In this document: positions 31,055 through 47,758 of the stretch, in pieces
Position numbering within the stretch: the stretch's first letter is position 1
Layout of the letters: the number at the start of each line of letters is the position of its first letter
Source: Phycisphaerae bacterium
GTDB taxonomy: Bacteria; Planctomycetota; Phycisphaerae; Sedimentisphaerales; Anaerohalosphaeraceae
Assembly (NCBI GenBank): GCA_012729675.1
Contig: JAAYCR010000005.1
Coordinates: 1 to 64,000 of the forward strand
Length of the DNA: 64,000 nucleotides
Reading direction: 5' to 3'
Made by a program: the position numbers and the translations under genes
The notes under the pieces: model-generated
Seen by the model: only the letters and a program-made list of their open reading frames with translations
The model's database searches: none
Told to the model about the DNA's origin: nothing

Positions 31055-33433
31055 ATGAAGACGAAAACAATTTTGGTTGCGGTTTCTATGCTTGTCATCT
31101 GCGCAATGCAGGCAGCGTTAGCGGAGGTTGTCAGCGTAACGAATCCTGGATTTGAGAGTAACGTGCTGGGCGCGGGAGGCAGTACTCCGAGCGCTAACGG
31201 CTGGACCATTACCGGAAATGCCGGGACGTTATATCCTAACACCGCCGCATTCGCCGACTTGGCGCCCCAGGGCAATAATGTCGCTTACGTGGATGCTGGG
31301 AACTTATCTCAAATCATTTTTGAGACGCTCCAGGCCAATACCGTGTACTCCCTCATCGTGGAGGTTGGCGATCGGCTCAATGTCGCATTCGTCAGTTATG
31401 CCGTTAATCTCTACGCCGGCAGCACGCTTTTGGCCAGTACCAGTGCGCCCATACCGCCGAATGGCGGCTTTGTCACCGCCGTGGTCAATTACGATGTCCA
31501 ACCCGAAGATCCGTTCGTCGGCCAAATCCTAAGAATCGAACTGGTTTCCGGAGGATCTCAGGCTGTATTTGACTGTGTCCGCCTGATCAAGCTGACCGAT
31601 CCGATCCTCAACTTCACCCAAGGGACTCGCTTTGCATCGATTCAGGCCGCCGTATATGCGGCCGACAACGGCGATGTCATTGAGGTTCCTCCGGGAACAT
31701 ACCATGAGCACATTACCTTTTTAGGCAAGGAGATAACACTGAAAAGTCAAAGCGGCAATCCCGATGACACCATTATCGATGGGCGGTTTATCGATATGTT
31801 GTCCAGTAGTACGGTCGCTTTGACTTCTTTCAAGGGGTCCATCGTCACCTGTGCTAATCAAGGGCCGACTATCGATGGATTCACCCTCACCAATGGCATG
31901 GGTACCTACCGCAGCGGGTACCGCTATGGCGGCGGAATGTACAATGCTGAAAGCGGCCCGACCGTGAGCAACTGCACCTTCGCCCTGAACTCTGTCACCG
32001 GCGATGGCGGCGGGATGTATAACAAGCCCGGCAGCCCCACGGTAACGAATTGCACCTTCGCTGAAAATCATGCGAATTTTGCCGGCGGCGGGATGGATAA
32101 CAGGAACCAAAGCAGTCCGGTTGTAACCGGATGCACCTTCAGCGGCAACACGGCTGGAACATACGGCGGTGGAATGGAAAACTGGACCAGCAGCAACCCA
32201 ACCATAACCAACTGCACCTTCAGTGGTAACATTGCCGTAAATGGCGGGGGAGCAATGGAAAACACGAGCAGCAGCAAGCCAACCGTAACGGACTGCGTTT
32301 TCACGGGAAATCAGGTTTCCTCTTTAGACGGCGGGGCGACCCATAACACCGTTTCCAGCATCCCCACATTTATCCGCTGCGATTTCGATGGCAACATCGC
32401 AAAACGCTATGGCGGTGCGATTCACAACGACAACAGCTCCGCTGTTTTTGACGATTGCACGTTTACAGACAATACCGCAACAACCGAAGGCGGAGCCGTA
32501 ATGAATCACAATGCAAGTCATGCCCGCTATACCGGCTGCACGTTTACACGCAACACCAGCAATTACGGCGGTGCGATGTTTAACCGACTGAACAGTTCTC
32601 CTGTCATTCTCCACTGCCTCTTTGCGTATAACCCCGCTGCCGCTTGGGGAGGCGCCGTGTACAATGATGAGGGCACCCAAAACCCGACGTTCGCTTATTC
32701 ACAGTTCCTGGGAAACCGCGCTAACAACGAACGTGGTGGGGCTATTGTACATAGATGCGCCGGTACACTCCGCCTGAACCACTGTCTGTTTATCGGCAAT
32801 TATGCCAAGATGTATGCCGGTGGTTTTTACACCGAGGCCGGCACGACTGATATGCAGCATTGTACTTTTACGGCTAACAATGCTCCTACCCGGGGCGGCG
32901 GGATACTCATGACATCCAGCAGCATCCTCAATATAGTCAATACGATAGCATGGGATAATACATCACCAACAGGGTCGGATATCGCGAAAGACAGCGGAAC
33001 ATTGGCGGTCTCCTACAGTGACTTCGGCGTAGCGATAACCGGTGAGGGCAATCTGGCGGCTGACCCGAACTTTGCCGTTACCCCCAGTGATGGCGGAGAC
33101 GGCTGGGGCGACAATTCCTCCACCCCTGCCTTCGACGAAAGCACCAACGACAACTTTGGCGATTTACGTCTTTCGGCGGGATCCCCCTGTATCGACGCGG
33201 GAACCAGCTTTGACACCAGTGCGGTGGACTTGGACGGGAATGTACGGACTGTTGATGATCCCGATATGCCCGATATCGGTATCGGCCCCGTCGCATTTGT
33301 CGATATGGGTGCTTATGAGTTCGGTTCTGCCCCTCCTGCTGGCGGTATCCCCGGCGATGTTAACAACAATGGCATGGTGGACTTCTTAGACTTGGCCATC
33401 TTGGCGAGACACTGGCTGGAAAGCGTACAGTAA
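31055..33433 (+). CDS. Secreted right-handed beta-helix protein with dockerin-like C-terminus
   Basis: A 792-residue exported protein. The signal peptide is MKTKTILVAVSMLVICAMQA. Residues ~25-180 begin with VTNPGFESN and resemble the carbohydrate-binding-like domains that start NxGFE. Residues ~190-640 form a parallel beta-helix of at least ten coils with the recurring pattern GGGM-x-N ... V-x-NCTFxxN, like polymorphic outer-membrane and pectate-lyase-like solenoids; the GTYHEHITFLGKEITLKS opening is typical. The C-terminus GDVNNNGMVDFLDLAIL is a canonical single calcium-binding dockerin-like repeat. It is probably displayed or attached through a cohesin-like partner. No catalytic residues could be assigned. 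It lies between decayed insertion sequences. Confidence 0.88.
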   Translation: MKTKTILVAVSMLVICAMQAALAEVVSVTNPGFESNVLGAGGSTPSANGWTITGNAGTLYPNTAAFADLAPQGNNVAYVDAGNLSQIIFETLQANTVYSLIVEVGDRLNVAFVSYAVNLYAGSTLLASTSAPIPPNGGFVTAVVNYDVQPEDPFVGQILRIELVSGGSQAVFDCVRLIKLTDPILNFTQGTRFASIQAAVYAADNGDVIEVPPGTYHEHITFLGKEITLKSQSGNPDDTIIDGRFIDMLSSSTVALTSFKGSIVTCANQGPTIDGFTLTNGMGTYRSGYRYGGGMYNAESGPTVSNCTFALNSVTGDGGGMYNKPGSPTVTNCTFAENHANFAGGGMDNRNQSSPVVTGCTFSGNTAGTYGGGMENWTSSNPTITNCTFSGNIAVNGGGAMENTSSSKPTVTDCVFTGNQVSSLDGGATHNTVSSIPTFIRCDFDGNIAKRYGGAIHNDNSSAVFDDCTFTDNTATTEGGAVMNHNASHARYTGCTFTRNTSNYGGAMFNRLNSSPVILHCLFAYNPAAAWGGAVYNDEGTQNPTFAYSQFLGNRANNERGGAIVHRCAGTLRLNHCLFIGNYAKMYAGGFYTEAGTTDMQHCTFTANNAPTRGGGILMTSSSILNIVNTIAWDNTSPTGSDIAKDSGTLAVSYSDFGVAITGEGNLAADPNFAVTPSDGGDGWGDNSSTPAFDESTNDNFGDLRLSAGSPCIDAGTSFDTSAVDLDGNVRTVDDPDMPDIGIGPVAFVDMGAYEFGSAPPAGGIPGDVNNNGMVDFLDLAILARHWLESVQ

Positions 33434-45880: not shown

Positions 45881-47164
45881 ATGAAAAAGCTTGTTTTGGC
45901 AATGCTGGTCGCGGCTATGGCTGTGCCGGCGTTCGCGGTGGTCAACATTAACGCCACGGACGAGGGGAATGGTGTTCTGAAGTTGTGGTACGAATGTACC
46001 GAAGGCGAAATTATCCGCGGTATTGCCCTCAGGATCGAGGCCGACGGCAATGCGACCATCGCGAATAACGGCGCCGCAACCGTATTGGCGTTGTGGGAAA
46101 TCGACGGAAAGTCGTTCGGTTTTAACACGTATATGGATTATGCGTTCACCGTTGAATCGGATACCCCTGGATTCTATGATATCGATCTGGGACATCCGCT
46201 GGCCAAGGCCGACGAACGCGGCGAGTTGGACAGCTTTCCGGCCGGCCTGTTTTCGGTCAGCATGGGTGCACTGGACCAGCTCGGCGAGCAGGCGGGCGTC
46301 GGCAGTTCCGGTGAACTGATGACCATTAAGTTTGACCTGACCGGAGATGCCGTTATCAGCATCGCAGCGGATACCCTCCGCGGCGGCGTCGTCGGTGACG
46401 GTGTCGAAGTCGTGGCCGTACAGCCCACCCAGTGGCTGATAGACGGCGGCGTGGTCGAAGAGGTCGTTTGCAGCGCTCTGGCCAAGACGACGGCCGGTAC
46501 GAACATTGACCAGACCCGCGTGAATGCCAGCCGTGTGGAGACCTTCACCGCCGCCGCCAGCAGCAACGTGGCCGGCGAGATTGAGTACTCCTTCGACTTT
46601 GGCGATGGCAACTGGACGGCGTGGGGCGCGGCCTCGCAGACCAAGACATTTGTCTATGGTGGTGCTGGTGTAGTTGCAGCGAATGACTATAGCTTCAATG
46701 TCAAGGTCAAGGCACGCAATGCCGCGACACTGGTCGAATCCGCCGAATACGGTCCCATCGTCATGGTCAGCGAACCCGTCAAGTCAACAATTGGCGCAAC
46801 ACAGTATGGCATTTGGGCAGCAGCTGGCCGTCCGAACTGCTGGGCCTTTCCGCGCAACTGCCGCGGCGATGCAAACGGTGGAAGTACAGGTTTAGGTGCT
46901 AATCGTACGTGGGTAACTGTCGCAGATTTGAACATTCTTGCCGCCGCCTTTAACAAAGTTGAAGCTGATCTTTTGGTCTCTTCGTTTGGCGGATTCCCTG
47001 GTGTCTGTGCCGATTTCAACCGTGGGAGTACCGGACTTGGTGCAAACCGTACATGGGTAACTGTTGCGGACTTGAATGTTTTGGCTCAGTATTTCAACAA
47101 GGTCGTAGCTGAAGTTCCGGTTTGCGAGCAGACGCAGTATCATTATTGGACGGGCAATCTGTAA
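45881..47164 (+). CDS. Secreted protein with duplicated, expanded dockerin-like motif
   Basis: A 427-residue exported protein with signal peptide (MKKLVLAMLVAAMAVPAFA). Residues ~20-185 form a beta-rich domain (LKLWYECTEGEIIRGIALRI, GFYDIDLGH, LMTIKFDLTGDAVISI) that could be cohesin-like; this is inferred. Residues ~200-310 resemble a PKD or Ig-like fold (SFDFGDGNWTAW). Two copies of a calcium-binding-like motif follow at ~328-360 and ~377-407, each DxN-[GR]-GSTGLGANRTWVTVADLN. Canonical dockerins read DxNxDGxVxxxDLN; here about eight residues (STGLGANR) are inserted and Asp5 is lost. Both copies share the insert and part of the nucleotide sequence, so the duplication is recent. The start follows AGAGAAAAGGATGGTGTC. 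Confidence 0.85.
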   Translation: MKKLVLAMLVAAMAVPAFAVVNINATDEGNGVLKLWYECTEGEIIRGIALRIEADGNATIANNGAATVLALWEIDGKSFGFNTYMDYAFTVESDTPGFYDIDLGHPLAKADERGELDSFPAGLFSVSMGALDQLGEQAGVGSSGELMTIKFDLTGDAVISIAADTLRGGVVGDGVEVVAVQPTQWLIDGGVVEEVVCSALAKTTAGTNIDQTRVNASRVETFTAAASSNVAGEIEYSFDFGDGNWTAWGAASQTKTFVYGGAGVVAANDYSFNVKVKARNAATLVESAEYGPIVMVSEPVKSTIGATQYGIWAAAGRPNCWAFPRNCRGDANGGSTGLGANRTWVTVADLNILAAAFNKVEADLLVSSFGGFPGVCADFNRGSTGLGANRTWVTVADLNVLAQYFNKVVAEVPVCEQTQYHYWTGNL

Positions 47165-47204: not shown

Positions 47205-47254
47205 GTAAGTTTGTACAAACAAAAACACAACTAATGTATGAAAGGGGAACGATG

Positions 47255-47758
47255 ATGAAGAAGTTAATGGTTCTGAGTTTGGTTTTGGCAATCAGTGCAA
47301 TGTCAAGTGCGGCCTTTACGATTGATTATTTAAATGATTCAGTCGTAGTAAGTAATACCGAAGACTTAATTGGCGGTATAGACGTCTATTTTGGTATTAT
47401 TGGCGGAAGTACAGGCTTGCTTGGCGACATTTCCTATCGCGATGGCGGTCCTGGTGTAGCAGCGATCCTAGATTCCTATACAGGTGAAGATGCTCTGGGC
47501 GAAGGCTTGCCTTGGGATGGCGGTTTGTGGCAGATTAAGTGGGCAATTGCCGAAGTGACTTCTTTTGATGCGGGCACATGGTTTTCAGTTGCTCTGCCGG
47601 GTTACTTTAGAGCCGCAGAAGGCCAGCATGACATCCAGATTGATGTTGTAGATGCTGCCAGTGGCGAAGGTGCCAGCCTGTACTTGGCCGTAGTTCCTGA
47701 GCCGATGACAATGGGTCTGTTGGGTCTTGGCGCGTTGTTCCTGCGTCGCCGCAAATAA
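47255..47758 (+). CDS. PEP-CTERM secreted protein
   Basis: A ~167-residue exported protein. Of three in-frame ATGs the one at 47255 has the best distance (six bases) from AGGGGA. The signal peptide is MKKLMVLSLVLAISAMSSA. The body is short and beta-rich without a known domain. The C-terminus has VPEPMTMGLLGLGALFLRRRK, a complete PEP-CTERM tag for exosortase sorting. It follows the dockerin protein by 90 bp and ends at a strong terminator, so the two secreted proteins may be coexpressed or have separate promoters. Confidence 0.85.
   Translation: MKKLMVLSLVLAISAMSSAAFTIDYLNDSVVVSNTEDLIGGIDVYFGIIGGSTGLLGDISYRDGGPGVAAILDSYTGEDALGEGLPWDGGLWQIKWAIAEVTSFDAGTWFSVALPGYFRAAEGQHDIQIDVVDAASGEGASLYLAVVPEPMTMGLLGLGALFLRRRK

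Follow-up and report, generated by a model that had tools for sequence, protein, structure and literature searches.

Why would a bacterial protein carry the same eight-residue insert in both calcium loops of a tandem dockerin-like motif, and what might such a domain bind? This question is raised by an open reading frame encoded in the window, i.e., the whole stretch of 64,000 nucleotides analysed here (Table 1). The C-terminal part of the protein reads C-RGD-ANG-GSTGLGANRTWVTVADLN-ILAAAFNK ... C-AD-FNR-GSTGLGANRTWVTVADLN-VLAQYFNK ... C: loop 1 runs from D330-ANG through GSTGLGANRTWVTVADLN to N351, loop 2 runs from D378-FNR through the same block to N399, and this 18-residue block, which includes the insert, is identical in the two loops. 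Compared with the canonical loop (D1 x N3 x D5 G6 x7 V8 x x x D12 L13), D1, N3 and D12 are retained, whereas positions 4-7 comprise 12 residues instead of 4 and Asp5 is lost. The insertion, the loss of Asp5 and the identity of the insert at the protein level had been recognized in a preliminary description of this DNA, and all three hold. The same description had assigned one DxN form to both motifs, which is correct for copy 1 but not for copy 2, which reads DFNRG and not DxNGG. The PKD-like spacer of the protein is missing in most of its orthologs.

Table 1. Features of the ORF and their positions in the window
Feature	Coordinates	Strand	Basis
Secreted cohesin-like - PKD - dockerin protein, 427 aa	45881..47164	+	ORF; signal peptide MKKLVLAMLVAAMAVPAFA, recognized in the translated sequence
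Cohesin-like beta-sandwich, residues about 20-180	45938..46420	+	Type II cohesin fold matches (prob 0.96-1.00); homologous in 129/161 order genomes; no Pfam Cohesin match
PKD-like spacer domain, residues 211-282	46511..46726	+	PF00801 E 4.5e-4, below gathering score
Insert-type dockerin domain, residues 306-417, four conserved Cys	46796..47131	+	Order-wide alignment; model pLDDT 90; fold search
Loop 1 with insert, D330-N351	46868..46933	+	Sequence
Loop 2 with identical insert, D378-N399	47012..47077	+	Sequence
Dockerin helix 1, residues 347-356; bears matched positions 10, 14, 17	46919..46948	+	Structure model, position-wise matching
Dockerin helix 3, residues 395-404; bears the same matched positions 10, 14, 17	47063..47092	+	Structure model, position-wise matching
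ORF part with deviant third-position GC (0.49 vs 0.73 before change point), probable replaced module	46646..47164	+	GC3 change-point analysis

The C-terminal slot and its expanded calcium loops

The identity of the C-terminal region was addressed by comparison with its orthologs. Canonical tandem dockerins occupy the same slot, after the same N-terminal domain, in L202-L205 and L207-L213 (the repeats of L210, for example, are GDANSDGLISALDVQVLLGAWGQ / CVDFNRDGLVSALDVQVLLGTWGG), a PEP-CTERM signal is found there in L215 and L216, and the cohesin-like proteins L199, L200, L201 and L206 of the same family end without dockerin or PEP-CTERM. Mixed forms exist. L207 has canonical loops behind the cysteine-rich lead known from the insert form. 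In L127 (genome G026), loop 1 bears an insert and loop 2 is canonical (DRDGDVDTADL), which makes this dockerin a possible intermediate and an exception to the matching between loops described below. The canonical dockerins and the mixed forms indicate that the slot is a dockerin slot and that the insert is an expansion of the calcium loop.

The structure of the C-terminal domain, predicted from 76 sequences, reached a pLDDT of 90 and a pTM of 0.83. When this model was submitted to Foldseek, all 8 PDB matches were dockerins or dockerin-bearing entries, the best being 2y3n_B, a type II dockerin of B. cellulosolvens (prob 0.99, TMt 0.73, with a weak E of 0.13). Pfam Dockerin_1 gave no match over the gathering score for the window domain and one weak match among the 76 members; the order-wide profile finds the dockerin in register. 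The dockerin-like identity proposed earlier is thus borne out, and the C-terminal region of the window protein is a type II-like dockerin with both EF-hand loops expanded by inserts. In the alignment of 125 domains, D1 is invariant, D12 is invariant in both copies, and position 3 is D or N in 123 of the first copies and in 72 of the second. The full set of calcium ligands (positions 1, 3, 5, 7, 9 and 12) is not found, position 5 being replaced by the insert and position 9 being mostly G or S.

Matched and variable inserts across the order

We searched 161 genomes of one planctomycete order, mostly metagenome assemblies, in which the named matches belong to Phycisphaerae/Sedimentisphaerales. 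The C-terminal domain was found in 82 of these genomes by single-sequence search and in 111 by profile; outside the order, no insert-type domain was retrieved at E 1e-10 from class and phylum samples, and a search for plasmid relatives returned none. Inserts were compared in 125 parsed domains from 77 genomes. Their length ranges from 3 to 12 residues and their sequence varies between proteins (KTMIFWVAVPDL, KSGLYWVYTNDL, AAGKGGVPPAHWVGSPDL, FLKPVMSSDL and SQSSKSGTWWVGTNDL are examples from different proteins), and in 113 of the 125 domains the two loops have inserts of equal length. With one protein taken per genus (36 genera) and pairs of equal insert length used between proteins, insert identity was 0.70 within a protein vs 0.31 between proteins, and identity at positions 9-11 was 0.81 vs 0.14; in 10000 permutations, insert matching reached a maximum of 0.57, against the 0.70 observed. 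The exact insert of the window occurs in a single protein of its genome and is unique to that protein, but its position and the rule of one insert in both loops are order-wide. Rarity of the insert in other proteins, which the preliminary description had offered as grounds for refuting a binding module, would therefore have misled: the design is common although the exact insert is unique.

Resolved by position, matching within a protein is strong at the insert and at positions 9, 10, 17 and 20 and moderate at positions 11 and 14, and V8, D12, L13 and L16 are near constant across insert-type dockerins. Two positions are reproducibly unlike: just before V8 (-1), most proteins have W or Y in the first copy but R in the second, and position 19 is A in the first copy but N or Y in the second. 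The W and R may contact each other across the pseudo-dyad; in the window protein, W precedes V8 in both copies. When insert length was mapped on a cohesin-domain tree, 19 changes were counted for copy 1, 18 for copy 2 and 20 for the pair, so that about 17 were made in both loops together; these absolute counts are rough, as the tree is built on a short domain. Paralogs of one genome have a common insert type in most multi-copy genomes, the exceptions being G016 and G152.

Matching of this kind is also present where there is no insert. In 10 canonical orthologs, positions 9, 10, 11, 14 and 20 match between copies in every protein, with a between-protein agreement of 0.09-0.36 at the same positions. 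For type II dual-binding dockerins, 10, 17, 20 and 21 are listed as the positions of recognition or as prevalent ones (PMC5590126), and they coincide with the matched positions here. In 2y3n, Met10 and Phe20, ten residues apart, act, as tested by ITC, in a dual-binding mode whose crucial feature is the symmetry of the repeats (PMC8063739), and in the symmetric group-4 dockerins binding is impaired by the double mutant only (PMC5301203). By analogy, the matched positions would most simply mark two equivalent binding faces, each extended by the insert that lies beside position 8, although the unlike positions -1 and 19 argue that the two faces are not fully equivalent. Partial Mantel tests on 53 proteins showed that similarity at positions 9, 10, 17 and 20 follows cohesin similarity (r 0.27, p 0.002, the framework being allowed for) and that the insert follows it weakly (r 0.12, p 0.048).

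Alternatively, the matching could come from packing of the inserts against each other within the domain, just before the antiparallel bridge at V8, so that a change in one has to be met by a change in the other, and the partner would not read them; we consider this explanation possible but unlikely. The insert does end at V8, where paired EF-hand loops form a short antiparallel bridge, the asymmetric W and R before it would face across the pseudo-dyad, and the DSSP bridges of the model at T336/T343 and T384/T391 fit a pairing between or within loops. Moreover, inserts vary widely while the cohesin stays the same: L031 and L084 have different inserts on cohesins that are 95% identical, which suggests that the insert may not read the cohesin. 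Packing leaves unexplained, however, why the helix positions 9-11, 14 and 17 match just as strictly in the insert-free canonical orthologs. In view of its weak link to the cohesin, the insert may partly or wholly pack the two loops on each other.

Codon usage bears on a further explanation, in which occasional copying of DNA between the repeats, by gene conversion or slippage, makes the copies match with no function needed. Within the insert and tail of the window gene, 10 of the 16 identical degenerate codons differ between copies (10.7 expected if the codons were independent); the sharing of the insert at the DNA level that had been described as partial is hence real, but only as extensive as the shared protein forces. 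Over loop and helix, residues identical in both copies show 16 synonymous codon differences vs 15.1 expected. A recent tandem duplication of the window loop is ruled out by these saturated synonymous sites, and saturation together with matching residues indicates that selection keeps the window copies alike. Over all proteins, 889 synonymous differences between copies were observed vs 1101 expected, they are nearly absent in L122, L090 and L015, and the ratio is lower in the proteins that are symmetric at the position before V8 (0.64 vs 0.81), all of which speaks for some copying. Yet in the window gene and in most others the residues match although synonymous differences have reached saturation or come close to it (median ratio 0.85), which points to selection for the match and speaks against copying as its sole cause. 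Copied tracts would also erase the unlike single positions (W/R, A/N) that lie in or beside the matched block, and we consider the copying explanation very improbable.

Exchange of whole dockerins

Comparison of L031 with L084, from two species of one genus, located an abrupt boundary. The nucleotide identity of these genes is 0.92-1.00 in the stretch encoding residues 1-120, stays at about 0.88-0.95 up to residue 220 and falls to 0.50-0.70 from residue 221, where the dockerin starts; where the two proteins have the same residue, the codon is also the same at 0.90 of the sites before this boundary and at 0.39 after it. In some species, the whole dockerin has been exchanged as a unit while the cohesin-like protein that carries it is conserved. 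An isolated case could stem from a chimaeric assembly, but several nearly complete genomes show this same boundary, which chimaeras would not explain. In several other genera the cohesin and dockerin parts evolve at like rates. L049 and L099, about 95% identical otherwise, differ at position 10, which is T in both copies of one and F in both copies of the other.

Base composition was examined along the same lines. The difference in third-position GC between the two gene parts has a median of 0.003 in 76 genes, whereas in the window gene third-position GC drops from 0.71 to 0.47 at the dockerin part (rank 3 of 76, p 5e-6), which places it beside L031, L084 and L024, the genes flagged by the identity-drop test. 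The best change point of the window gene, 46646, is somewhat upstream of the dockerin. This fall suggests that the window dockerin, too, was probably replaced as a module.

The downstream PEP-CTERM gene (window 47234-47758) has a third-position GC of 0.45, low like the dockerin part of its neighbour, and has the 11-mer GGAAGTACAGG and the peptide GGSTGL in common with insert 1; on the + strand of the window, this 11-mer occurs at these two places only.

The cohesin-like domain and the proposed assembly

The best fold match of the full-length model was the type II cohesin 3l8q_C (E 1.5e-5, prob 1.00), followed by several other type II cohesins, and as the C-terminal model alone matches dockerins, this match was assigned to the N-terminal domain, modelled with a pLDDT of about 55-92. 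Antibody folds, too, are among the matches, with lower probabilities, as any beta-sandwich can be expected to give. The domain gave no Pfam Cohesin match over threshold and no sequence match to solved cohesins, and a profile search with it against the PDB returned no useful match. It is present in 129 of the 161 genomes, including 63 of the 66 good ones, mostly once per genome. A single cohesin-like domain and a single insert-type dockerin are encoded in the window genome (99.92% complete), in the same ORF, and a hand count gave about 60 genomes with one, and no more, of each. That the only cohesin-like domain and the only insert-type dockerin lie in one ORF makes head-to-tail self-association the economical reading.

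We therefore propose, with a probability of roughly 0.55, that the C-terminal region is an expanded-loop type II-like dockerin with two equivalent cohesin-binding faces, whose partner would be the N-terminal cohesin-like domain of the protein itself, so that the molecules may link head to tail. The two inserts and the matched positions 9, 10, 11, 14, 17 and 20 would form the two faces, which would be kept alike since the partner could bind either way round, and the protein might thereby be joined into chains or a network on the surface of the cell. The earlier suggestion of a distinct binding module that has a partner of its own is plausible in this form: the evidence points to the cohesin-like domains of the same protein family as putative partners, here the protein's own N-terminus. 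In other genomes, a membrane-anchored cohesin (PEP-CTERM) and many dockerin-bearing proteins would be added to give a small cellulosome-like assembly. Genome G031 encodes an extra cohesin-like protein that bears a PEP-CTERM signal, and dockerins of this kind are found on another 22-27 of its proteins. Cadherin and bacterial Ig domains, leucine-rich repeats and, on a protein of 2832 aa, a C25 peptidase were identified in those scanned, and the accessory proteins examined in G031 and G034 together are of the Ig/cadherin, LRR, peptidase C25 and DUF7901 types. In G031 (L092, L215 and about 22 further loci), the cohesin-PEP-CTERM and cohesin-dockerin proteins, together with over 20 dockerin proteins, make up a candidate non-cellulolytic cellulosome-like assembly. 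It is no cellulosome in the strict sense: a cellulosome has a multi-cohesin scaffoldin that binds dockerin-bearing cellulases, whereas one cohesin-like domain is found in the window genome.

That the domain is instead a C-terminal sorting or anchoring signal, read by the surface-attachment machinery and not by a cohesin, would suit its C-terminal place on secreted proteins that have nothing else in common (about 22-27 of them in G031), as well as the use of the same slot by PEP-CTERM signals (L215, L216), but is very improbable given that other orthologs have an ordinary tandem dockerin in this slot and that G031 and G159 have PEP-CTERM and dockerin forms side by side on the cohesin-like domain. 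A bolder extension of the head-to-tail reading, in which the cohesin-dockerin protein of nearly every species self-polymerises, with a hypervariable dockerin cassette, its loop inserts duplicated on both faces, exchanged between lineages and a surface polymer in each lineage that recognises its own kind or escapes predator or phage, is speculative and in our judgement improbable.

Several known systems resemble parts of this arrangement. The Cel48 type II dockerin of B. cellulosolvens (2y3n; PMC8063739, PMC5590126) is the best fold match and has internally symmetric repeats. Type II dual-binding dockerins have no loop inserts, however, and occur in numbers on cellulases with one code per organism, whereas the dockerins of this order are usually single in a genome, lie on the cohesin-bearing protein and differ in code between most species. 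The type II dockerin of Acetivibrio cellulolyticus ScaA (PMC5141474) has a four-residue insertion in its first calcium loop, i.e., in one loop of one protein, whereas here both loops carry matched and variable inserts of 3-12 residues. In Ruminococcus flavefaciens, the group-4 dockerins and the ScaB/CttA X-dockerins duplicate their recognition residues in both repeats, and ScaB/CttA dockerins have insertions, but these disrupt the symmetry and brace the X-module (PMC5301203), whereas the inserts here are the symmetric part. Finally, the Ig/cadherin, LRR and C25 peptidase proteins of G031 recall the hypothetical 'planctosome' of freshwater Planctomycetes, for which the parts of the source consulted (PMC6461901) describe cohesin and dockerin modules on non-cellulolytic secreted proteins including peptidases, and an adaptor with both; it belongs to another lineage, Nemodlikiaceae, and loop inserts or matching are not reported in those parts.

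The matched, swappable loop inserts look like a fast-changing protein-protein recognition code. Inserts of varied length and sequence, changed in both loops together about 17 times, constitute a natural experiment, and close relatives with different dockerins on a nearly unchanged cohesin provide matched natural variants for testing the role of symmetry. The set may also supply possibly orthogonal docking pairs for protein engineering, and it points to cohesin-dockerin assembly outside cellulose degradation across a whole, mostly uncultured order.

A recognition code common to the other dockerins of the window genome was considered and rejected: about 16 weak Dockerin_1 matches were found, several with one readable C-terminal repeat, and the readable canonical loops, mostly single-repeat, are of a different kind and do not share the code. 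One canonical repeat, DVNNNGMVDFLDLAILARHW, forms the C-terminus of the protein at 31.05 kb, in agreement with the preliminary description; this protein of 792 aa (window 31055-33433) has an HpiC1-like domain and Chlamydia-PMP-type repeats ahead of its single canonical dockerin repeat.
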